A stretch of DNA of 64,000 nt, from contig JALWTX010000022.1 of assembly GCA_026993355.1 (NCBI GenBank), positions 1-64,000 of the forward strand. Direction: 5' to 3'. Each line of letters opens with the position of its first letter. Positions within the stretch are counted from its first letter, which is position 1. Position numbers and translations under genes: made by a program. The notes under the pieces were generated by a model. That model saw only the letters and a program-made list of their open reading frames with translations. It searched no databases and was not told the DNA's origin. Source of the DNA: Flavobacteriales bacterium (GTDB lineage: Bacteria; Bacteroidota; Bacteroidia; Flavobacteriales; Flavobacteriaceae). Shown piece after piece: positions 39,286 to 52,071 of this stretch.

Positions 39286-39309
39286 AAAGCCTTTCTGTCG
39301 AAGGGCTTT
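39286..39309 (+). terminator. Terminator after rny
   Basis: A 9-bp stem (one G-T pair) AAAGCCTTT with AAGGGCTTT, a 6-nt loop, then a T run. Confidence 0.8.
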
Positions 39310-39444
39310 TTGTTTTATTATTTTGCTGATTTTGAAATTATAAATGATAACTTTTTATATTTATGTTATTAACTGGAGAAAATTATCAAACCATAAAATA
39401 TTTTTTATATATTTGTTAAGTTTTTCAATAAACTATTCAACAAC

Positions 39445-42400
39445 ATGAACAAACTGCTTCAACTTCTTTTTATATTCTTACTTTTCTTTAGTTTGAATAG
39501 TCATGCCCAAACCATACAAAATAGATCATTCCGGGCCATTCCGGCAGATTACGATAATGATGGCATTGATAATACAGTCGATATAGACGATGATAATGAC
39601 GGTATTCCGGATAAAATAGAATCCGGTGGTATTGATCCATTGACAGATGCCGACCACGATGGTGTCCCCGTCTATTTAGATGATGATGACAACGATTTTA
39701 ATGTAGGTGATGCCAATGCGGCCATTGAACCCGGATTTGATTTCGATGAAGATGGTGTCCCAAATTTTTTAGATTTAGATTCAGACAATGATGGTTTATG
39801 GGATGCTGCCGAATCAGGTCGTATTGCCGGCGATGATGCCAATTTTGATGGTATGCTTGATAATCCGGTAGGTGCCAATGGTTTGGTCGATATACTTGAA
39901 ACTATCCCGGATAGCGGTAATCTAACCTATACCATTCAAAATAATGATGGTGCTTTTCCTATATCCGATACCAATCCTGATTTTATCGATAAAGATGATG
40001 ATAATGATAATGTATTAACAATCAATGAACACCCTGATGATAATGCAAATGGTTATCCCGATGATGCCCTGGATACCGACGGCGGTGGGTCGGGTAACTA
40101 TTTAGACCCTGATGATGATGGTGATGGTATAGATACTATTTGGGAAGATGTAGCATTGCCCAATAATTACCCACAAGATGGTAATCCTATGAACGATGAT
40201 ACTGACCTTGATGGCATTCCTAATTATTTAGATGTCGATGATGATAATGATGGGACTCTAACGGCTGATGAACACCCTGATGATAATAATAATGGAATCC
40301 CGGATGATGCTCTTGATGGTGATGGTGATGGTACGCCCGATTATTTAGATCCTATTAATGATCCATTTGACCATGATAATGATGGTATTCAAGACAATGT
40401 CGATTTAGATGATGATAATGACGGCATTCCTGATTTGGCTGAACTCAATGGTTCAGACCCTTTAGCCGACGCTGACAATGACGGTGTTCCGGCTTATTTG
40501 GATGATAACGACAATGACAATACGGTAGGAGATGCCAATAACCATGTGCAACCTGCCTATGATACGGATTTTGATAACATTCCCAATCATTTTGATTTGG
40601 ACTCAGATAATGACGGCCTGTTTGATTTTGCCGAATCGGGACAAACCACCGGACAAGATACCAATCATGATGGGATGGTGGATGGCGCTGTTGGCGCCAA
40701 TGGTTTGCCCGATATAATAGAAACAAGTACCGACAGTGGGGTGATTAATTATACTATTCAAGATACAGACACTGATACTATTTTTGATTTTTTAGATACC
40801 GATGACGATAATGATCATGTACTGACGACCGCTGAATACCCCGATTTTAACAATAATCATTATCCCGATGATGCCATGGATACAGATTTGGATGGGATTC
40901 CTAATTATTTAGATAAAGATGATGACGGTGACGGCCTTTACACCATCTTTGAAGATGTGCAATTGCCAAACAATTATCCACAAGATGGTGACCCGACCAA
41001 TGATGATACCGATGGCGATGGTATTCCTAATTATTTGGATAGTGATGATGATAATGATGGCTTACTTACTATAAATGAACAAGCTGATAACAATGGCAAT
41101 CATGAACCTGATGATGCTGTTGATACCGATGGCGATGGTATTCCAAATTACTTAGATGATTATGAAAATGCAGCCGATCATGACAACGATCATATTGATG
41201 ATGATGTCGATATAGATGATGACAATGATGGGATACCGGATATTGCAGAATATAATGGTACAAACCCCGAAACGGATGCTGACAATGATGGCGTACCGGC
41301 TTATTTAGATGATGACGATAATGATAACACCTTGGGAGACGCCAATAATCATGTCGAACCTCAATTTGATTTGGATAACGATGGGATTCCTAATCATTTC
41401 GATTTAGATAGTGATGGTGATGGGCTTTTCGACCTTGCCGAATCGGGTGCTACCGGTTATACTGATACCAATATGGATGGTCGCGTCGATGATGCCGTGG
41501 GCGCCAATGGCTTGGCTGACATATTAGAAACTTCTGCTGATAGTGGTAACATTAATTATAGCCTAAAGGATACCGATAGCGATACTTCTAAAGATTTTCT
41601 GGATTTTGATGATGACAATGACCATGTTTTAACCATCAATGAACATGCCGATGATAATGCTAACGGTTATCCTGACGATGCTTTGCATACCGATTTTGAT
41701 GGCATCCCTAATTATTTAGACCGTGATGATGACGGCGATGGTTTATATACGGATTTTGAAGATGTACAATTGCCCCATAATTATCCACAAAATGGCAATC
41801 CTATGGATGATGATACCGATGGCGATGGGGTCCCTAATTATTTAGATAATGATGATGACGATGATGGCATATTAACCATTGATGAACATGCCGATAACAA
41901 TGGCAACCACGAACCGGAAGATGCCATTGATACCGATGGTGATTTAATTCCGGATTATCTGGACTGTTGTACCTTACAAGATGACCATGATAATGATGGG
42001 ATAACCGACGATATAGATATTGATGATGACAATGATGGGATTCCTGATTTATTAGAATATAACGGACAAAATCCGGATGATGATGCCGACAATGACGGCG
42101 TGCCGCTTTACTTAGATGATAATGACAATGACAATACCATAGGAGATGTTAATAATGCAGTTGAACCGGCTTTTGATTTAGATGGTGACGGTATTCCAAA
42201 CCATTTTGATATTGATTCGGATGGCGACGGTTTGGGCGATGCAGCAGAATCTGGGCGATTATCTGTTCCGGTGGGTACCGATGTCCAGCCCGATGGTATT
42301 TTAGAAGGAAATGTCGGGGTAAATGGTTTAGTTGACGATTTGGAAACGACGCCTGATACAGGCACAATTAATTATCCTTTGCAAGACACTGATAATGATG

Positions 42401-45400
42401 GTCAATTTGACTTTTTAGATAAAGATGATGAAAATGATCATGTGCCTACGGCCCTTGAATACCCCGATTTTAATAACAACCGTTACCCTGATGATGCCAT
42501 GGATACGGATTTGGATGGCATTCCTAATTATTTAGACCGCGATGATGATGGCGATGGCATATATACAGTCTTTGAAGATGTTGCCTTACCTAATAATTAT
42601 CCGCAAGATGGCGACCCGACCAATGATGATACCGATGCGGACGGCATTCCCAATTATTTAGATGTAGATGATGATGGCGATGGGATTTTAACCATCAACG
42701 AACACCCTGACGATAATGGCAACCATGAACCTGAAGATGCGCTTGATTCTGATTTAGACGGCATTCCCGACTATTTGGACAATTATGACCACCCTAACGA
42801 TGCTGATAATGATCATGTCGATGATGATGTCGATTTAGATGATGACAATGACGGCATACCGGATATTTCCGAATATAATGGCACAGACCCCTTGACAGAT
42901 GCAGACAACGATGGTGTGCCGGCTTATTTGGATGATAATGATAATGATAATACGGTTGGTGATAATAACAATGCTGTTGAACCGGCATTTGACTTAGATG
43001 GCGATGGTATTGCCAATCATTTCGATTTAGATAGCGATGGCGATGGCATTTATGATATGGTTGAATCCGGTGCCACCGGATACACCGATACCAATTTAGA
43101 TGGTCGTGTCGATGATCCTGTCGGATCCAATGGTTTGGCAGATGTGTTGGAGACGACAGCAGACAGTGGCAATATCAATTACACTTTACAAGATACAGAC
43201 AACGATTCTACATTTGACTTTTTAGATGTCGATGATGATAATGACCATGTTAATACAGCGAATGAAACCCCTGATGTCAATGGTGACCATTATCCGGATG
43301 ATGCCATGGATACCGACAATGATGGAACACCCAACTATTTAGATCGTGACGATGATGGGGATGGTATATATACTGACTTTGAAGATATTGCCTTACCAAA
43401 TAATTATCCGCAAGATGGTGACCCGACCAATGATGATACCGATGGCGATGGTATTCCAAACTATTTGGATGTAGATGATGATAATGACGGCATTTTAACT
43501 GTCAACGAACATCCGGATGACAATGGTAATCATGAACCCGAAGATGCGCTTGATTCTGATAATGACGGTATTCCGGATTATTTAGATAACATTGATAATA
43601 ACCATGATTTTGATGCAGATGGCATAACCAACGATAATGATATAGATGACGATAATGACGGTATTCCGGATTTGGATGAATATATTGGTCTCAATCCTTT
43701 TGAAGATGCCGATAATGACGGGGTTCCTGCTTATTTGGATGATAATGATAACGATAGCAATATAGGAGATGATAATAATGCTGTAGAAGCTGCTTATGAC
43801 ACTGATGGCGATGGCGCAGCCAATCATTTGGATGTTAGCAGTGACATGGATAATCTTTATGACCATATTGAATCCGGCCGTTTAAGTATCCCCATTGGAA
43901 CAGATGCCAATAATGATGGTATGCTTGAAGGTAATGTCGGTAGTAACGGATTAATTGATGAATTAGAAACATCACCGGATAGTGGTGTCCTTCTTTATCC
44001 TCTACAAGATACTGATAATGATGGTATTATTAATGCCATTGATAATGATGATGATGGCGATCATGTCCGGAGTCAAGATGAGTTTCCGGATATTAATGGG
44101 GACCATTTACCTGATGATGCCATGGATACAGATTTAGATGGTATTCCCAATTATTTAGACCGTGATGATGACGGCGATGGTTTATATACGGATTATGAAG
44201 ATGTGGCATTACCAAATAATTATCCCCAAGATGGTGATCCGACCAATGATGATACCGACGGCGATGGTATTCCAAACTATTTGGATGTGGATGATGATAA
44301 TGACGGTATTTTAACTGTCAACGAACATCCGGATGACAATGGCAATCATGAACCCGAAGATGCTGTAGATACGGACCATAACACTATCCCCGATTATTTA
44401 GATGCCGGCGATTATGATGGTGACGGGGTGAATGATTTGGTGGATATAGATGACGATAATGACGGCATACCTGATAAAGATGAAAGTGGCGGTATTGATC
44501 CCATGACAGATGCAGACGGTGATGGATATCCCGTTTTTATAGATGATGATGATAATGATAACAGTATTGGCGATGCGAATGGACAAATAGAACCGGCTTA
44601 CGATATTGATGGAGACGGTATTCCTAATCATTTCGATTTAAAGTCTGATAATGATGCTTTATTTGATACAGCAGAATCCGGCCGTTTAAGTATTCCGGCA
44701 GGTACGGACACAAATCAAGATGGCATATTGGAAGGCAATGTCGGTAGCAATGGCTTAATGGACGATTTGGAAACAACACCGGACAGTGGTGTCTTATTAT
44801 ATAATGTATTAAATACGGACGGTGATGGGCAAATTAATGCCTTAGACGATGATGATGATAATGATTTGGTTATAACCAATGATGAACATCCGGATGATAA
44901 TGCAGACAGTTACCCCGATGATGCTTTAGATACGGATACTGATGCCACCCCTGATTATTTAGACCGCGATGATGATGGCGATGGCTTATACACTGATTAT
45001 GAAGATGTGGACCAATTCAACCATTATCCGCAAGATGGTAATCCAATGAATGATGACACCGATGGTGATGGTATCCCTAATTATTTAGACAATGATGATG
45101 ACGACGATGGTATTTTGACTTTTGACGAACATGCAGATGATAATGGAAACCATGAACCCGATGATGCTATTGATACAGACAATGACGGTATTCCTGATTA
45201 TTTAGATCCTAAAGATGACCGCGCTTTGGAAATATTTACTGCAATATCGCCTAACGGCAATGGTAAAAACGATTTTATGTTTATTAAAAATGTCAGTAAA
45301 TATCCTGAAAATAAAATGACTATTTTAAATCGTTGGCAAACCAAAGTTTGGGAAGGAAAAAATTACGATAATGTCAATATTCGGTTCGAAGGTCGTGATT

Positions 45401-45507
45401 TAAGTGGCAGGTTATTACCGACAGGAACCTATTTTTACGTTTTCGAATATAAAAATGAGGATGGAAAAACCAAAGTAAAAGCAGGCTATTTATATCTATT
45501 AAAATAA
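39445..45507 (+). CDS. Giant acidic Asp-repeat surface protein with T9SS type B (gliding-motility) sorting domain
   Basis: 2020 aa: a signal peptide (LLQLLFIFLLFFSLNSHAQ), seven tandem modules of about 270 residues (residues 45-1922) and a C-terminal gliding-motility-associated domain (about 1925-2020, TAISPNGNGKNDFMFIKNV ... GRLLPTGTYFYVF). The modules are built of DxDxDG-type calcium-binding loops like thrombospondin type 3 repeats (for example DADNDGVPAYLDDNDND, DTDGDGIPNYLD). The type B domain implies secretion by the type IX system with a PorP/SprF partner, which is the next gene (4 nt later). Likely a calcium-stiffened surface filament or adhesin; the ligand is unknown. A TATATTTG -7-like site lies at 39408-39415. 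Short frames on the other strand here are shadows of the biased codons. Confidence 0.9.
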   Translation: MNKLLQLLFIFLLFFSLNSHAQTIQNRSFRAIPADYDNDGIDNTVDIDDDNDGIPDKIESGGIDPLTDADHDGVPVYLDDDDNDFNVGDANAAIEPGFDFDEDGVPNFLDLDSDNDGLWDAAESGRIAGDDANFDGMLDNPVGANGLVDILETIPDSGNLTYTIQNNDGAFPISDTNPDFIDKDDDNDNVLTINEHPDDNANGYPDDALDTDGGGSGNYLDPDDDGDGIDTIWEDVALPNNYPQDGNPMNDDTDLDGIPNYLDVDDDNDGTLTADEHPDDNNNGIPDDALDGDGDGTPDYLDPINDPFDHDNDGIQDNVDLDDDNDGIPDLAELNGSDPLADADNDGVPAYLDDNDNDNTVGDANNHVQPAYDTDFDNIPNHFDLDSDNDGLFDFAESGQTTGQDTNHDGMVDGAVGANGLPDIIETSTDSGVINYTIQDTDTDTIFDFLDTDDDNDHVLTTAEYPDFNNNHYPDDAMDTDLDGIPNYLDKDDDGDGLYTIFEDVQLPNNYPQDGDPTNDDTDGDGIPNYLDSDDDNDGLLTINEQADNNGNHEPDDAVDTDGDGIPNYLDDYENAADHDNDHIDDDVDIDDDNDGIPDIAEYNGTNPETDADNDGVPAYLDDDDNDNTLGDANNHVEPQFDLDNDGIPNHFDLDSDGDGLFDLAESGATGYTDTNMDGRVDDAVGANGLADILETSADSGNINYSLKDTDSDTSKDFLDFDDDNDHVLTINEHADDNANGYPDDALHTDFDGIPNYLDRDDDGDGLYTDFEDVQLPHNYPQNGNPMDDDTDGDGVPNYLDNDDDDDGILTIDEHADNNGNHEPEDAIDTDGDLIPDYLDCCTLQDDHDNDGITDDIDIDDDNDGIPDLLEYNGQNPDDDADNDGVPLYLDDNDNDNTIGDVNNAVEPAFDLDGDGIPNHFDIDSDGDGLGDAAESGRLSVPVGTDVQPDGILEGNVGVNGLVDDLETTPDTGTINYPLQDTDNDGQFDFLDKDDENDHVPTALEYPDFNNNRYPDDAMDTDLDGIPNYLDRDDDGDGIYTVFEDVALPNNYPQDGDPTNDDTDADGIPNYLDVDDDGDGILTINEHPDDNGNHEPEDALDSDLDGIPDYLDNYDHPNDADNDHVDDDVDLDDDNDGIPDISEYNGTDPLTDADNDGVPAYLDDNDNDNTVGDNNNAVEPAFDLDGDGIANHFDLDSDGDGIYDMVESGATGYTDTNLDGRVDDPVGSNGLADVLETTADSGNINYTLQDTDNDSTFDFLDVDDDNDHVNTANETPDVNGDHYPDDAMDTDNDGTPNYLDRDDDGDGIYTDFEDIALPNNYPQDGDPTNDDTDGDGIPNYLDVDDDNDGILTVNEHPDDNGNHEPEDALDSDNDGIPDYLDNIDNNHDFDADGITNDNDIDDDNDGIPDLDEYIGLNPFEDADNDGVPAYLDDNDNDSNIGDDNNAVEAAYDTDGDGAANHLDVSSDMDNLYDHIESGRLSIPIGTDANNDGMLEGNVGSNGLIDELETSPDSGVLLYPLQDTDNDGIINAIDNDDDGDHVRSQDEFPDINGDHLPDDAMDTDLDGIPNYLDRDDDGDGLYTDYEDVALPNNYPQDGDPTNDDTDGDGIPNYLDVDDDNDGILTVNEHPDDNGNHEPEDAVDTDHNTIPDYLDAGDYDGDGVNDLVDIDDDNDGIPDKDESGGIDPMTDADGDGYPVFIDDDDNDNSIGDANGQIEPAYDIDGDGIPNHFDLKSDNDALFDTAESGRLSIPAGTDTNQDGILEGNVGSNGLMDDLETTPDSGVLLYNVLNTDGDGQINALDDDDDNDLVITNDEHPDDNADSYPDDALDTDTDATPDYLDRDDDGDGLYTDYEDVDQFNHYPQDGNPMNDDTDGDGIPNYLDNDDDDDGILTFDEHADDNGNHEPDDAIDTDNDGIPDYLDPKDDRALEIFTAISPNGNGKNDFMFIKNVSKYPENKMTILNRWQTKVWEGKNYDNVNIRFEGRDLSGRLLPTGTYFYVFEYKNEDGKTKVKAGYLYLLK
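39577..45210 (+). repeat. Seven tandem modules of about 810 nt inside the giant surface-protein gene
   Basis: Each module starts at the DxDDDNDGIPD block. Module starts in the protein are residues 45, 319, 588, 857, 1129, 1398 and 1666, so periods are 274, 269, 269, 272, 269 and 268 residues, with a last module of about 256. Each contains a fixed order of sub-blocks: EYNG/ESGG, DADNDGVPAYLDD, ESG-, NGL-D-LET, YPDDA-DTD, RDDDGDG-YT-EDV, LPNNYPQDGDPTNDD, and EHPDDNGNHEPEDA. Confidence 0.93.
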
Positions 45508-45511
45508 CAAC

Positions 45512-46426
45512 ATGAAAAATATATTTGTAATATTAATTTTTATAAGTTTGTGGCAGACACGTGAAATCACTGCTCAAGATTTTCCATTACATACGCAATA
45601 CATGTATAATAAAGCAACTATAAACCCGGGAGCATTAGGCGTCAGTGGAAAAATAAGCATATTATTAATGCATCGTTCACAATGGGTAAATGTAGAAGGT
45701 GCGCCTAATTCCAGTGATTTGGCTTTTCAATATCCCTTTGAAAAAACAGCTTTTGGTGCCGGTGTTAATTATGACCAACTTGGTCCGGTAAGTCAAATTA
45801 CCGGTAATTTTCAATTTTCTTATAATTTAGAATTGTCCTTTACGACATATCTCTCCTTAGGAATTAATGCCGGGGTTTATAGTAGGACGGTGGATATGAG
45901 TAAACTTAAAATACAAGATCCGACAGAAAGTATATTTAGTAAAAACCTAAAATCAACCGACTTCAATTTAGGGGTTGGGGCATTTGCTTACTCAGAAATA
46001 TGGTATTTTGGTGTTTCCATACCAAATTTGAATTTACAACGGCAATTTAATACTTTGCCCGTTTTTGATAAACACTTATTACAATCTTATGTCATGGGTG
46101 GCTATAATTTTGAAATCAATCGCGATATGACATTGCAACCCTCATTTATGGTGCGTTACATTCAAAACTTACCTCTATCGGCAGATTTAAGTATTAATAT
46201 GCAATGGAATGAATCCCTGACAACCGGTTTAGCTTACAGATTAAATGCGGCATACTCTTTGCTTGTTGGTTTTAATGTATCCCGGCAATTTCATGTAGGT
46301 TATGCTTTTGATTGGGATCAAAATCCCATTTATAAAGCTAATTACGGATCTCATGAAATATTTATGCGCTATAACTTAACCCGGGATGAAAATAGTTTGC
46401 GTTACCAATCGCCGAGATTCTTTTAA
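45512..46426 (+). CDS. PorP/SprF family T9SS outer-membrane protein
   Basis: 304 aa with a signal peptide (FVILIFISLWQTREITAQ) and a beta-barrel body that starts with the family block DFPLHTQYMYNKATINPGALG and continues with LMHRSQWVNVEGAPNSSDLAF. In Flavobacterium johnsoniae SprF is required for secretion of the adhesin SprB; PorP/SprF proteins are paired with type B-sorted cargo. Its position 4 nt after the giant protein says it is that protein's dedicated partner. Confidence 0.93.
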   Translation: MKNIFVILIFISLWQTREITAQDFPLHTQYMYNKATINPGALGVSGKISILLMHRSQWVNVEGAPNSSDLAFQYPFEKTAFGAGVNYDQLGPVSQITGNFQFSYNLELSFTTYLSLGINAGVYSRTVDMSKLKIQDPTESIFSKNLKSTDFNLGVGAFAYSEIWYFGVSIPNLNLQRQFNTLPVFDKHLLQSYVMGGYNFEINRDMTLQPSFMVRYIQNLPLSADLSINMQWNESLTTGLAYRLNAAYSLLVGFNVSRQFHVGYAFDWDQNPIYKANYGSHEIFMRYNLTRDENSLRYQSPRFF

Positions 46427-46436
46427 TGAATAAATT

Positions 46437-48179
46437 ATGAAAATAAAATTAATTTATATTACGCTATTTTTATTGAGTCTGTCAAATTTGCAGGCACAGG
46501 TTGAAGAAGCCGGTGTCAAAAAAGCAGACCAATTATATAATGGCTATGAATACCTCAAAGCAAGGGATATTTATTTAAAAGTAGCTAATCGCGGGTATGT
46601 ATCTGCCTATTTATATAAGAAATTAGGTGATTCTTATTTTAAAACGGCAGAATATAAAGAAGCCGTCAAATGGTATGAAAAACTATTTAAGTTGGGTGTC
46701 GATCCCGAGCCGGAATATTATTTTAGATATGCTCAATGTTTAAAAGCCAGTGGACGCCGTGAGGAAGGCGATAAATATCTTCAAAAATACTATTCATTGG
46801 TTGACGATAAATTTAGAAATAATACCATCCGGAAAAAATCTTATATTCTTTATGACAATGATATTCCACTGGAATATAGTAGTTACAAAATTGATAGCCT
46901 CTCTATAAATACTGAGTTTTCGGACTTTGCACCGGTTATTTTGAAAGATAAATTGATTTTTGCTTCTGCTGGTTATCATCCGGTTGGATATAAAAAGAAA
47001 TGGCAAAACGGGCAACCTTATTTTGATTTGTACGAAGCTAAAATAAATGCCCCCAATGACGTTTCGGGTGTTAGACCTTTACCAGGAGACATAAATACCG
47101 AATATCATGAATCATCAGCCACATTTACGCCAGATGGCAAAACGATGTATTTTTCGCGTAATAGTTTTAAACCGGGAGAAAAGGGTTCGAATTTAAGCAA
47201 ATTGAAAATTTACCGTGCTGAAAAAATTAATGGTGAATGGAAAACCGTAGAAGAATTACCGTTTAACAGCGAAAACTTTACCTATACACATCCTGCTTTA
47301 AGTCCGGATGGTAAGCGTCTATACTTTTCATCAGATATGCCAGGGAGTTTTGGTAGTTCCGATATTTGGTATGTCGAAATATATGAGGATAATTCTTATA
47401 GCTATCCCCAAAATCTCGGACCTAAAGTTAATACGACTGAGCGAGAGAATTTTCCTTATATCAGTAAGGATAATAAATTATATTTTGCTTCTGATGGCCA
47501 ACTGGGGTATGGCGGTTTAGATATTTTTGTAGCAGATATTGACAAAAACGGTATGATTGGCGATATACTGAATTTAGGAAAACCAATCAATTCTCCGCAA
47601 GATGATTTTTCATTTACCATTGACACCAAACATAATTACGGCTATTTTGCTTCAAGTCGCAATAATGCCAAGATGCGCGATAATATTTATGTTTTTTATA
47701 AATCCAATGAAATCAAAAAAGGAGATGCCAAAGACTTATTCTCCAAAATGAAAGATTCTATTAAAGTCGCAATTCCAAAACAAGAATCCATTGTTAAAGG
47801 TAAGGATTTAGGTAAACTCTTAGATTTAAAACCCATTTATTTTGAATATGGACATTATGATATAGGGCCACGCGCCGCTATAGAATTGGAAAAAGTGATT
47901 GCTGTTCTAAGAAAATATCCCGATGTTAAATTAGAAATTAGATCCCATACCGACTCCAGAAGCAGTGCGGCATTTAATATGAAATTATCGCAAAAAAGAG
48001 CCGATGCCACACGGCAATATCTTATTGATAGTGGCATAGATCCTTCTCGAATTACAGCCAAAGGTTATGGCGAAACCCAATTAGTAAACCGCTGTAAGGA
48101 TGGCGTAAAATGTACCGAAATGGAGCATAGACAAAACAGACGTTCTGAATTTATTATTATACAAGAAGAGAAAAAATAG
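46437..48179 (+). CDS. OmpA-family T9SS-associated protein (PorE/SprE-like) with beta-propeller
   Basis: 580 aa: a signal peptide (MKIKLIYITLFLLSLSNLQAQ), a TPR-like region (about 25-130), PD40/WD40-like propeller strands (HPALSPDGKRLYFSSD, NFPYISKDNKLYFASDG) and a C-terminal peptidoglycan-binding OmpA domain (PIYFEYGHYDIGPRAAIELEKV ... SQKRADATRQYLIDSGI ... NRRSEFIII). This order resembles PorE. It starts 10 nt after the PorP/SprF gene, so giant protein, porP/sprF and this gene form one locus. It would anchor the secretion partner to the cell wall. Confidence 0.9.
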   Translation: MKIKLIYITLFLLSLSNLQAQVEEAGVKKADQLYNGYEYLKARDIYLKVANRGYVSAYLYKKLGDSYFKTAEYKEAVKWYEKLFKLGVDPEPEYYFRYAQCLKASGRREEGDKYLQKYYSLVDDKFRNNTIRKKSYILYDNDIPLEYSSYKIDSLSINTEFSDFAPVILKDKLIFASAGYHPVGYKKKWQNGQPYFDLYEAKINAPNDVSGVRPLPGDINTEYHESSATFTPDGKTMYFSRNSFKPGEKGSNLSKLKIYRAEKINGEWKTVEELPFNSENFTYTHPALSPDGKRLYFSSDMPGSFGSSDIWYVEIYEDNSYSYPQNLGPKVNTTERENFPYISKDNKLYFASDGQLGYGGLDIFVADIDKNGMIGDILNLGKPINSPQDDFSFTIDTKHNYGYFASSRNNAKMRDNIYVFYKSNEIKKGDAKDLFSKMKDSIKVAIPKQESIVKGKDLGKLLDLKPIYFEYGHYDIGPRAAIELEKVIAVLRKYPDVKLEIRSHTDSRSSAAFNMKLSQKRADATRQYLIDSGIDPSRITAKGYGETQLVNRCKDGVKCTEMEHRQNRRSEFIIIQEEKK

Positions 48180-49024: not shown

Positions 49025-50227
49025 ATGAAATGGTATCCGAATATTGCACAGGTAGTTATAAAAGCCTTAAATGAAATTTTTAACCAGCATAAACAAGGTG
49101 ATAAAGTTATCAATAGCTTACTTAAATCCCAAAAAAAATGGGGAAGTCGTGACCGGAAATTTGTCGCCAAGGTCCTGTATGACATAATCCGTTGGAAGCG
49201 TTATTATGAATATTTGGCAGGCGATGACATTATCTCAGAAACAGGAAAATGGAAAATTTTAGGAGTTTGGTCTATTTTAAATGGGATAGATTTGCCTGAT
49301 TGGCCGGAATTCAGCACTATAAATAAGCAAGAAGTATTACAGAGAAAAGAAACCATAACAGATGAAAAAATAAAACAGTCTGTGCCGGATTGGTTGCATA
49401 ATAAAGGACAACAAGAATTGGGTGATAAATGGTTGAGTGAACTAACTGCTTTAAACAAAGAAGCTGAGGTTGTCATACGGGTAAATACCTTGAAAACGAC
49501 ACCGGAACAATTGAAAAAAACACTTCAACATGAAGGTATTGATACCTTTAATTTAGCTGAATTTCCTGAAGCTTTATTCTTAAACAAACATCAAAAGCTT
49601 ACCCATTTGAAATCTTTTAAACAAGGCCTTTTTGAAGTGCAAGATGCTTCATCGCAATTAGTAGCTCCTTTTAGTGGGGTCAAACCCGGTGATAAAGTAA
49701 TTGATGCCTGTGCAGGAGCCGGTGGCAAAACCTTGCATATGGCAGCTTTAATGAAAAACAAGGGAAGCATACAAGCCTATGATATTTTTCCTTCTAAAAT
49801 TAAAGAATTAAAAAGGAGAGCACAACGTAATGGCGTGAAAATTTTAAAGGAAGCATCTTTAATTGACGAAAAAATTATTCAAAAAAACAAAGAAAAAGCT
49901 GATATTTTACTAATAGATGCCCCCTGTAGCAGTCTGGGCACACTAAGACGAAAACCGGATTTGAAATGGAAACTAAATCCTGAAAAATTAAGACAAATTA
50001 CAACGACCCAACGAAATATATTAGAAAATTATGCCGAAATGTTACGTCCCGGTGGTGTGTTAATTTATATCACTTGTTCGATTTTGCCCAGCGAAAATGA
50101 AGAAATAGTAAATAATTTTCTTAAAAAGCATAAAAATTTTATATTTGTTGACCAAAAAACAATTCTGCCATCAAGCTCTAGGGGAGACGGGTTTTATATG
50201 GCGAAACTTAAAAAACTAACACAATGA
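49025..50227 (+). CDS. rsmB: RsmB/NOL1-NOP2-type 16S rRNA cytosine-5 methyltransferase
   Basis: 400 aa: an N-terminal NusB-like helical part, then a SAM-binding methyltransferase domain. Motif I is DACAGAGGKTLHMAALM, the catalytic cysteines are Cys301 in DAPCSSLG and Cys351 in ITCSILPSENE, and RRKPDLKW is present. Two cysteines are the hallmark of RNA m5C enzymes. The exact target (C967 in E. coli RsmB) is assumed. A TACTTTTG -7-like site lies at 48990-48997. Its stop overlaps the next gene by 4 nt (ATGA), so the endonuclease is co-translated. Confidence 0.88.
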   Translation: MKWYPNIAQVVIKALNEIFNQHKQGDKVINSLLKSQKKWGSRDRKFVAKVLYDIIRWKRYYEYLAGDDIISETGKWKILGVWSILNGIDLPDWPEFSTINKQEVLQRKETITDEKIKQSVPDWLHNKGQQELGDKWLSELTALNKEAEVVIRVNTLKTTPEQLKKTLQHEGIDTFNLAEFPEALFLNKHQKLTHLKSFKQGLFEVQDASSQLVAPFSGVKPGDKVIDACAGAGGKTLHMAALMKNKGSIQAYDIFPSKIKELKRRAQRNGVKILKEASLIDEKIIQKNKEKADILLIDAPCSSLGTLRRKPDLKWKLNPEKLRQITTTQRNILENYAEMLRPGGVLIYITCSILPSENEEIVNNFLKKHKNFIFVDQKTILPSSSRGDGFYMAKLKKLTQ

Positions 50228-52071
50228 ACAAACAACTTACTTTTTTATTCTTATGGATAAGTGGCTTTTTATTTGCCCAAATCCCGGCTGGTTATTATGA
50301 CAGTGCTCAAGGTTTGACCGGCTATCAGCTTAAAAGTGCCTTAAAAAGCATTATTACTAATGGTCATGTTGCCCACACTTATAATGAATTATATACGGCT
50401 TATGAAACAACGGATACTGATAATTATTATGAAAATGATGGTTCGGTTTTAGATATGTATTCAGAAAATCCTAATGGACCGGATCCTTATAATTTTCAAC
50501 ATAATCAAGATAAATGTGGCAATTATTCATCAGAAGGCGATTGTTATAATCGGGAACATTTAATGCCGCAAAGTATTTTTGGCTCAGCGAGTCCAATGAA
50601 AAGCGATGCACATTTTGTTGTTCCCAGTGATGGTAAAGTTAATGGAATGCGAAGCAATCATCCTTTTGGTGAAGTAACTAATCCTACTTGGACCTCTCTA
50701 AATGGTTCTAAATTAGGGCCAAATTCAACTACTGGTTATTCAGGAACCGTCTTTGAACCAATTGATGAATTTAAAGGTGATATTGCCCGAATGTTATTTT
50801 ATGTAGCAACACGTTATGAAGATCAAATTGCCGGCTGGGGACAATCTGATATGTTAGATGGAAGCAGTGATAAAGTTTTTACCGATTGGTTTTTACATAT
50901 TTTACTCAATTGGGCAAGTCAAGACCCGGTTAGCCAAAGAGAAATTGACCGGAACAATGCCGTTTATAATTATCAAGGCAATCGTAACCCATTCATTGAT
51001 CATCCGGAATGGGTCAATGCCATTTGGAATGCCACACAGGATACAACTGCACCATCTGTCCCTGCTAACTTGAGTATATCAATGGTAACTGATACCGAAA
51101 TCACTATTGTTTGGGATGCCGCAACTGATGCCAGTGGAATTGCCCGATATGATATATATGTTGATGGTAATCTGACCGTTTCATCTACAAGTACGACATT
51201 TATTATTACCAATTTGTCAGCCAATACTACTTATAATATTTGTGTTAAGGCAGTTGATAATGCCGGAAATGTCTCTGCTTGCAGTAACAGCATTTCGGCA
51301 ACAACTACTCAAGCTGTTACATATCTTATCAATGAAAATTTTGACAATTGTCCGACTATGGCTTTTACAGCTGTCAATGAAGCCAGTGATAAAGATTGGC
51401 ATTGCATTACGCAATATGGTGAAAACAATTCACCTGCTATCCAAATCAATGGCTATCAAGAAAATGAACCGAGCAAAGATTGGTTAATTACAACCGCCCC
51501 TGTTAATATGGATTTATACACTAATGAAAAACTTTCAGCTTTTTTTGCTTATGCCTATGGAACAACTCCTTTAGTATTGGTCTATTCTGCTGATTATGAT
51601 GGCAATGGTTCACCTAAAAACTTTACATGGACACCTGTTCCTAATGTCAGTTTACCTGTTCCGGCTGGTAGCTCTACACCCACAGAATATGTTTTGGCCA
51701 ATGCCGATATCAGTAGTATTAATGGCAGTGTTTACTTTGCTTTTAAATATTATTCTAATGGCAGTCCAACCCGTTGGACGGTGGACAGTGTTAAATTATC
51801 GGCTGATACGGCAAATGGTATTGAGGCATATGTTAACAGTCATATAAAATTATATCCTAATCCGGTTCATAAAGGCACAGTATTATATTTAAAGGTGTCT
51901 GACATAGATTTGCAAACAATAGATATTTATGATATTTCAGGGAAGAAATTAGATCATTTAAAGGTCAATGGAAACTTATCTATTAATACTGCTAAGTATT
52001 CACGTGGGCTATACTTTATACATTTAAAAACGAATAAGGGAGAAATAACTAAAAAATTACTTATTCAATAA
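50224..52071 (+). CDS. Secreted endonuclease I-family protein with FN3 and T9SS type A sorting domain
   Basis: 615 aa: a signal peptide (NKQLTFLFLWISGFLFAQ), an endonuclease I domain (about 20-255; CGNYSSEGDCYNREHLMPQSIFG holds the conserved NREH metal-site region, then SDAHFVVPSDGKVNGMRSN), a fibronectin type III domain (about 278-365), a jelly-roll-like adhesin domain and a sorting domain (IKLYPNPVHKGTVL ... EITKKLLIQ). It would cut extracellular DNA or RNA, perhaps for nutrition or biofilm DNA. Its ATG lies within the rsmB stop. A terminator follows. Confidence 0.92.
   Translation: MNKQLTFLFLWISGFLFAQIPAGYYDSAQGLTGYQLKSALKSIITNGHVAHTYNELYTAYETTDTDNYYENDGSVLDMYSENPNGPDPYNFQHNQDKCGNYSSEGDCYNREHLMPQSIFGSASPMKSDAHFVVPSDGKVNGMRSNHPFGEVTNPTWTSLNGSKLGPNSTTGYSGTVFEPIDEFKGDIARMLFYVATRYEDQIAGWGQSDMLDGSSDKVFTDWFLHILLNWASQDPVSQREIDRNNAVYNYQGNRNPFIDHPEWVNAIWNATQDTTAPSVPANLSISMVTDTEITIVWDAATDASGIARYDIYVDGNLTVSSTSTTFIITNLSANTTYNICVKAVDNAGNVSACSNSISATTTQAVTYLINENFDNCPTMAFTAVNEASDKDWHCITQYGENNSPAIQINGYQENEPSKDWLITTAPVNMDLYTNEKLSAFFAYAYGTTPLVLVYSADYDGNGSPKNFTWTPVPNVSLPVPAGSSTPTEYVLANADISSINGSVYFAFKYYSNGSPTRWTVDSVKLSADTANGIEAYVNSHIKLYPNPVHKGTVLYLKVSDIDLQTIDIYDISGKKLDHLKVNGNLSINTAKYSRGLYFIHLKTNKGEITKKLLIQ

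Follow-up and report, generated by a model that had tools for sequence, protein, structure and literature searches.

A conserved array of seven aspartate-rich modules in a type IX secretion system type B protein of a Flavobacteriaceae genome

The 64,000 nucleotides analyzed here (hereafter the window: positions 1 to 64,000, forward strand, of contig JALWTX010000022.1 in assembly GCA_026993355.1, from a bacterium of the family Flavobacteriaceae) contain, at 39445-45507, a gene for a giant acidic protein built of seven modules. The protein is a type B cargo of the type IX secretion system (T9SS): it ends in a CHU_C sorting domain and a shuttle gene lies directly downstream. It belongs to an already known kind of surface protein. 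Its array shows a giant repeat protein that keeps the identity of most of its repeats while its length changes by whole modules. For the locus as a whole we propose, with a probability of about 0.72, that the cargo is held by a PorP/SprF-type barrel, anchored through a PorE-like protein and folded by calcium into a static acidic rod.

Results

The seven-module cargo and its operon

The gene encodes 2020 residues, and the seven acidic modules of 268-274 residues that a preliminary description, made from the sequence alone, had seen at this position are indeed present. The elements of the operon are listed below; the letters A to D for the front classes of modules were assigned in this analysis.

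39445..45507, +: cargo gene, seven-module T9SS type B protein, 2020 aa (open reading frame coordinates exact; CHU_C tail)
39445..39510, +: signal peptide-like N terminus of the cargo, judged by eye from the sequence
39550..40371, +: module 1, aa 36-309, front class C (ESGRIA-GDD)
40372..41178, +: module 2, aa 310-578, front class D (ESGQTT-GQD)
41179..41985, +: module 3, aa 579-847, front class A (ESGATGYTDTN at about 41440-41493)
41986..42801, +: module 4, aa 848-1119, front class B (ESGRLSVPVGTD...LEGNVG at about 42247-42318)
42802..43608, +: module 5, aa 1120-1388, front class A (ESGATGYTDTN at about 43063-43116)
43609..44412, +: module 6, aa 1389-1656, front class B
44413..45219, +: module 7, aa 1657 to about 1925, front class B
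45229..45498, +: CHU_C / type B sorting domain (Pfam PF13585, 70.4 bits against a cut-off of 27)
45512..46426, +: PorP/SprF-type shuttle barrel, without cysteine (TIGR03519, 218.8 bits against a cut-off of 90.55; PF11751)
46437..48179, +: PorE-like protein with a tetratricopeptide repeat-like stretch (below Pfam cut-offs), PD40 repeats and an OmpA domain (domain scans; NF052230, 300.4 bits against 600)

The sequence blocks reported by the preliminary description are all there: ESGATGYTDTN(M/L)DGRVDD in modules 3 and 5, ESGRLS(V/I)P(V/I/A)GTD...LEGNVG in modules 4, 6 and 7, and ESGGIDP in modules 1 and 7. The latter two modules were rightly singled out as the most divergent: in a tree of the window modules alone they have the longest end branches (0.67 and 0.54; module 6 has 0.49).

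The cargo is 26.5% aspartate and 2% lysine plus arginine, with 2 cysteines in 2020 residues; for the protein minus its first 22 residues the calculated isoelectric point is 4.05 and the mass 217 kDa. The pattern D-x-[DN]-x-[DN]-G gives 84 overlapping matches, and each module holds 9-13 candidate Asp loops. A repeat scan of the DNA returns seven gap-free copies in register, spaced 804-822 nt and 62-80% identical to reference copies, together with a smaller repeat of about 103 nt inside the modules (14 copies in all; each module has two of them, 243 nt apart). At the protein level the modules of the window are 62-77% identical in pairs.

The shuttle gene starts 4 nt past the cargo stop, and the order cargo, shuttle, PorE-like gene is kept in all five same-genus relatives that hold the 3′ end of the cargo gene; by tblastn, identity to the operon genes of relatives is 87-94% for the PorE-like protein and 67-80% for the shuttle. 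The PorE-like protein (46437-48179, +) has a signal peptide-like start lacking a lipobox cysteine. A complex of type B cargo, PorP and PorE has been described (PMC9143113), and by analogy the cargo would pair with its shuttle and be anchored to the wall.

Modules keep their positions across the genus

The window and eight genomes of the same genus yielded 52 modules in their type B array frames. The 46 complete ones were aligned; the six cut short by a contig end were left out and three small type A proteins set aside. Two relatives, G009 (87%) and G007 (78%), likewise have seven modules. In the full-length tree the modules of positions 1, 2, 3, 4, 6 and 7, that is six of the seven positions, form one starred clade each (G003 copies counted by origin). 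Grouping by position with the window modules holds for 7/7 modules of G009 and 6/7 of G007, the exception being G007 module 5. Position 5 forms no clade: the module 5 of the window and that of G009 stand beside the 3s (91/90), those of G007, G001 and G003 elsewhere. The positional grouping across the genus means that these species split after the array and its pattern had arisen.

Changes in array length involve whole modules or blocks, and most positions keep their own front-half sequence. The array of G003 has ten modules, of which 3 pairs with 6 (94/90), 4 with 7 (100/99, starred) and 5 with 8 (100/99, starred); a three-module block, 3-4-5, has therefore been duplicated. The array of G012, whose 5′ end is missing, ends in 4-, 6- and 7-type modules, so a 5-type module is absent there.

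Between orthologous modules of the window and G009 the nonsynonymous divergence (dN) is 0.02-0.11, and synonymous differences are near saturation. Where residues are identical, the codon is identical too with a frequency of 0.47-0.64 in these orthologous modules and with a mean of 0.56 (front) and 0.58 (back) in non-orthologous ones. Low dN combined with near-saturated synonymous sites implies an array that is old and under strong purifying selection. Since synonymous sites are near saturation between modules, even between species, any copying of modules 3-4 to 5-6 must also be old: a recent two-module duplication is rejected on this saturation and the positional orthology. An AB unit could still have been duplicated long ago, with 6 later copied to 7.

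The front and back halves of the module have different affinities

The preliminary description had seen in the array an alternation of module types, had suggested from it that the unit 3-4 was copied to 5-6, and had taken the pattern to point to internal recombination with conserved caps. In the window-only tree module 3 does join module 5 (92/93, not starred), but 4 does not join 6, although forcing 4+6 costs just 0.16 log-likelihood units (lnL; approximately unbiased test, p-AU 0.476, not rejected). The front-half classes behind the alternation are well supported, but their order is by itself weak evidence: with the same classes, ABAB occurs in 24 of 420 permutations, and ABAB or BABA in 42 of 420.

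Half-module trees were built from the four complete arrays (window, G009, G007 and G003; 31 modules), with the break at alignment column 165. Columns 1-165 give 3+5 (97/87, starred), 4+6+7 (97/90, starred) and 6+7 (98/92, starred). In the front half 3 thus groups with 5, and 4 with 6 and 7, which speaks for the proposed copying, but the nearest kin of module 6 is module 7; forcing 4+6 costs 8.1 lnL (p-AU 0.064, weak and not rejected). Columns 166-283 group {2,4,5,6} (87/90, not starred); here 3+5 costs 22.5 lnL (p-AU 0.139) and 4+6+7 costs 22.7 (p-AU 0.174), neither being rejected. The front half rejects {2,4,5,6} (p-AU 0.0086) and {3,7} (p-AU 0.00026); the p-values for the column-165 break and for these two groupings are post hoc, because all were chosen after viewing block comparisons. 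The claim of internal recombination holds insofar as block-wise change is real, as seen in halves with different affinities and in the three-module duplication of G003.

In the front half the modules of position 5 do not form one clade (p-AU 0.029), and those of the window and G009 group with their own module 3 (88/90), a pattern that fits a putative transfer of sequence from 3 to 5 in the window/G009 lineage, atop an old shared class. The likeness of modules 3 and 5 stops mid-module: their front dN of 0.132 is the lowest of all pairs, and their back dN of 0.200 is the second highest among pairs without module 1.

In the back half, positions 1 and 3 are clades and clades for the other five are not rejected (p-AU 0.37-0.53). 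Strong gene conversion of the back half is weakly supported by the sequence comparisons, and signals of local exchange between modules appear weak and mixed. Measured against 200 synonymous shuffles, the longest exact match between modules is 47 bp in the window (reached by 1/200), 56 bp in G007 (0/200), 41 bp in G003 (3/200) and 35 bp in G009 (22/200); this signal looked stronger with only 20 shuffles than with 200. Exact matches of at least 26 bp lie in the back half in 6/6 cases in the window, 2/2 in G007 and 1/4 in G009. The back halves of window modules 5 and 6 have 74% identical codons against a mean of 61%, but this is not exceptional, as non-orthologous window-G009 pairs reach 73%. Between the window and G009, back dN is lower than front dN in 7/7 modules; given this slower evolution, part of the uniformity of the back half reflects constraint.

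As a cap marker ESGGIDP has to be abandoned: two relatives carry it at an inner position (module 2 in G002, module 3 in G003), and it is missing from the end modules G002_1, G009_1, G011_1, G003_10 and G012_4. Kinship of modules 1 and 7 is rejected over columns 1-165 (p-AU 0.019), although a quick tree of columns 1-90 joins all 1s and 7s (Shimodaira-Hasegawa-like approximate likelihood ratio test, 91), a result in favor of the preliminary description.

By sequence the modules resemble calcium-binding aspartate-loop folds

Used as a profile against the PDB, the seven window modules match only BamM (9n2d_D, E 1.9e-4; limit 0.01), whose C-terminal domain is described as being without well-defined secondary structure and as holding seven metal ions assigned as calcium (PMC12611786). 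A 32-row profile that includes relatives matches BamM (1.3e-5) and COMP (3fby_A, 3.2e-4) and nothing else up to E 0.1. Module 4 alone matches only BamM (E 7.9e-5); its shuffled letters match nothing in the PDB up to E 1. The cargo is not itself BamM: against the family NF053691 it scores 155.8 bits (cut-off 315) in eight stretches, the best of 38 residues. TSP_3 and TSP3_bac are matched at E <= 0.01 by 6 and 5, respectively, of the 32 aligned members. A blastp self-comparison of module 4 reported no pair.

An AlphaFold2 model of module 4 (32 rows) has almost no helix or strand; its ten-residue confidence means are 85-96 over residues 1-150, except for 66 at residues 91-100, which are the class-specific block. 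The top three Foldseek matches of this model are COMP, TSP-1 and TSP-2 (E 1.7e-5 to 2.8e-4). With VIA-align, for which 10 chains were compared, Z is at least 2 only for BamM (3.5, which is low) and a Bap B domain (2.0), and the thrombospondin chains found by Foldseek are not among the matches listed. Together these comparisons and models describe modules that are aspartate-rich and thrombospondin type 3 (TSP3)-like, and that are likely to bind calcium. Literature searches combining thrombospondin type 3 with T9SS, and TSP3 with calcium binding in Bacteroidetes, found no match; one on such repeats in flavobacterial adhesins led to a paper on an ice-binding protein.

The shuttle lacks the tail cysteines of gliding partners

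The tail Cys-Xaa-Cys (CxC) of SprF is reported to be disulfide-bonded to GldK for gliding and to be needed for sustained movement (PMC12635249). In F. johnsoniae a PorE-like gene belongs to the operon of Fjoh_3952, the only cargo seen static, but not to those of the moving cargoes described in the same account (PMC12618676); a link between a PorE-like neighbor and anchored or static cargo is also made, as a proposal, in PMC9143113.

The genome to which the window belongs contains six type B tails and five shuttles. All three shuttles with an adjoining PorE-like gene (contigs C3, C16 and C22, the last being that of the window) have no cysteine in their last 50 residues; both shuttles without such a neighbor (contig C6 and an orphan on C8) do have cysteine there, one and two respectively. 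Neither the window shuttle nor its five orthologues, over the stretches read (for G001 minus the first residues), contains any cysteine, and hence the CxC motif of SprB-type systems is absent from them. The cysteine-free shuttle and the PorE-like neighbor, read alongside the published F. johnsoniae cases, lead to the prediction that the cargo is a static, wall-anchored rod. Also encoded in the genome are GldJ (772 bits) and a GldK-like protein, the latter having a cysteine at residue 342 of the frame read.

Two further loci deserve mention. At G000:C6:47875-48147 (L004) lies a 5380-aa type B cargo frame whose shuttle (L129) has a single tail cysteine, with no PorE-like match on the contig; this cargo is the best gliding-adhesin candidate of the genome, and a better SprB candidate than the window cargo. 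The orphan shuttle of contig C8, of PorP/SprF type and with two cysteines in its tail, is at G000:C8:8611-9531 (L132); the same contig has two type B cargoes elsewhere, neither adjoining a shuttle, like the orphan sets described for F. johnsoniae (PMC12618676).

Distribution and genomic context

The array is present in 9 of 13 genomes of the genus, own genome included, and the PorE-like gene in 6 of 13 at E <= 1e-100. Absence of the array from G004, G005, G008 and G010 is uncertain because these assemblies are in 140-400 contigs. Contig C151 of G009 and contig C188 of G004 end about 172-175 bp past the RNase Y gene, where by the order of the window the cargo would begin; such ends make gene absence in broken metagenome-assembled genomes hard to judge. 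When the module profile was run on 199 genomes of the family, 9 matched at E <= 1e-30. Full modules (>370 bits) occurred only in the two genomes of this genus among them, the other seven reaching at most 149 bits. Among the 79 loci kept, the five closest with a name come from metagenome-assembled genomes labelled Flavobacteriales or Flavobacteriaceae; L054 and L055 (uncultured Flavobacteriaceae) are large frames with TSP3-like stretches and, by eye, a CHU_C-like end, in a different architecture. Phage records gave no match to module 4 at E 1e-5, and plasmid records gave three haloarchaeal matches of 37-39% identity.

The module also occurs on type A tails. Proteins in G006 (L045:2-2203, -), G012 (L044:44-1819, -) and G007 (L046:2240-4000, -) carry its first ~180-190 positions plus further TSP3-like stretches, and in the two that were read, L045 and L044, the front block is of the B type. 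Occurrence of the same module on type A and type B tails makes it portable between T9SS tail kinds.

Two small elements precede the cargo in the window:

39286..39309, +: terminator-like hairpin after the RNase Y gene (pattern scan; a hairpin pattern only, function predicted at most)
39408..39415, +: putative promoter element TATATTTG, which fits TAnnTTTG (pattern match)

TAnnTTTG is the -7 promoter consensus of Bacteroidota. Downstream of the operon, at 50224-52071 (+), the window encodes a second secreted protein near the array, with endonuclease I and fibronectin III domains and a T9SS type A tail.

Discussion

We propose that the cargo would be exported by Sec and would then pass through the T9SS translocon. 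Its CHU_C tail would be handed to the PorP/SprF-like barrel encoded downstream, which would stay bound, and the PorE-like OmpA protein would tie that barrel to peptidoglycan. Asp loops like those of thrombospondin type 3 repeats would bind calcium and so fold the seven modules into a long, strongly acidic rod, which would be static, unlike a gliding adhesin that moves, and would serve in adhesion or in coating the surface. Homology and the literature point to calcium binding, shuttle pairing, wall anchoring and static behavior; adhesion as the end use is conjecture.

Several points weigh against this proposal, which for the source organism draws on sequence and models, not on experiment. The TIGR04131 match of the cargo tail is borderline: 32 bits against 35 in hmmscan, and 37.9, over the cut-off, in the genome scan. 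With 300.4 of 600 bits the PorE-like protein attains half of the NF052230 cut-off and thus does not qualify as PorE proper; it has no cysteine near the end of its signal peptide, the first being residue 101, and the PorE of P. gingivalis is termed a lipoprotein (PMC9143113). As to the fold, the shuffle control covered a single sequence and not profiles; the back half of the module 4 model is poor (ten-residue means of 48-67 after residue 160); a two-module model (8 rows) is unusable, with a mean pLDDT (predicted local distance difference test) of 42.8; the Foldseek TM-scores on the query (0.14-0.19) and probabilities (0.38-0.47) are low, as is the VIA-align score of BamM; and module 4 reaches 14.8 bits for Pfam TSP_3 against a cut-off of 25. 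The contrast between static and mobile is based on only five shuttles, and neither cysteine-bearing tail is a true Cys-Xaa-Cys (a single cysteine; a pair nine residues apart). Finally, since the genome encodes GldJ and a GldK-like protein, gliding is possible.

These last proteins also speak for the cargo being an SprB-type mobile adhesin, carried along a GldJKN track by its SprF-like partner, and a long repetitive type B cargo with an SprF-like gene directly downstream is in keeping with this. We nonetheless regard it as improbable: SprF needs its tail CxC (PMC12635249) and no cysteine was read in the shuttle or its five orthologues; the PorE-like neighbor marks the static cargo of F. johnsoniae, albeit in one case (PMC12618676); and the 5380-aa cargo of contig C6 suits the part better. 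The aspartate-rich rods could, alternatively, be a calcium or metal sink or a mineral-binding coat, not an adhesin, that binds or buffers divalent ions at the surface. The bare composition (26.5% aspartate, 2% lysine plus arginine, 84 loop motifs) speaks for such a role, but TSP3-type spacing and the positional conservation of blocks other than aspartate point to a folded structure, and we consider a sink quite unlikely.

Two alternatives concern the origin of the array. That its alternation is a trace of tandem copying of the unit 3-4 to 5-6 draws on the front-half clades 3+5 and 4+6+7, but 6 pairs with 7, the pattern is common by position across the genus and the likeness ends mid-module; near-saturated synonymous sites do not fit a recent event, only an ancient one, and overall the idea seems to us unlikely. 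That the array is an assembly artifact, a collapsed or falsely expanded repeat, was named by the preliminary description as an outcome that would undo its reading. The contigs of five relatives (G001, G002, G006, G011 and G012) do end inside the gene, and one contig of G009 just upstream; however, two independent relatives, G009 and G007, show the same seven-module order (tree exception, G007 module 5), and a protein difference of 23-38% with near-saturated synonymous sites means that the window modules are not assembly copies. The array is not an artifact on this evidence, and we hold the contrary to be exceedingly improbable.

The static, calcium-folded rod thus remains our preferred reading, and its module may have a finer design. 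We suggest, tentatively and as something rather doubtful, that each module could comprise two units: a position-locked front half, whose class at each position the genus has kept and which would therefore probably make a position-specific contact (a ligand site, for example, or rods packing side by side), and a back half more open to exchange, serving as a common calcium-stiffened linker. If true, the rod would be an ordered, addressable filament and not a string of equal beads.

Anchoring and sorting of type B T9SS cargo is a recent topic (PMC9143113, PMC12618676), and the locus offers a compact, testable case: an operon of cargo, shuttle and wall anchor in which the shuttle is without the tail cysteines by which SprF connects to the gliding track, and other shuttles of the same genome do have cysteines in their tails. 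Its value lies chiefly in the position-locked fronts as against the more uniform backs, and in the static/mobile prediction.

Comparison with known systems places the parts of the locus among described relatives. The best PDB sequence match to the modules is the C-terminal domain of BamM from the BAM complex of Flavobacterium johnsoniae (9n2d chain D), an Asp-loop fold that calcium stabilizes and that lacks well-defined secondary structure, to which the window modules are likened by sequence; BamM, however, is a lipoprotein of the cell surface and carries a PPI domain (PMC12611786). With the thrombospondin type 3 repeats of COMP, TSP-1 and TSP-2 the modules have DxDxDG loops in common, COMP being a profile match and all three the top Foldseek matches, whereas the window cargo is almost without cysteine, falls below the Pfam TSP_3 cut-off and is built of a higher-order module of 270 aa. 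PG1035-PorP-PorE of Porphyromonas gingivalis likewise combines a type B cargo, a PorP-type barrel and a PorE-type OmpA protein (PMC9143113); here the likeness is by description, the PorE-like protein of the window being below the PorE cut-off and without a lipobox cysteine. The SprB/SprF gliding pair also consists of a repetitive type B cargo with an SprF-type shuttle downstream, but the window shuttle lacks the tail cysteine motif and adjoins a PorE-like gene. The same three-gene order of type B cargo, SprF-like shuttle and PorE-like gene is found in Fjoh_3952-3951-3950 of F. johnsoniae, with the same putative arrangement, a static cargo retained by the shuttle and anchored to the wall through the PorE-like protein (PMC12618676); the window locus is likened to it by gene order, not by cargo sequence, its own cargo being a seven-module TSP3-like array.

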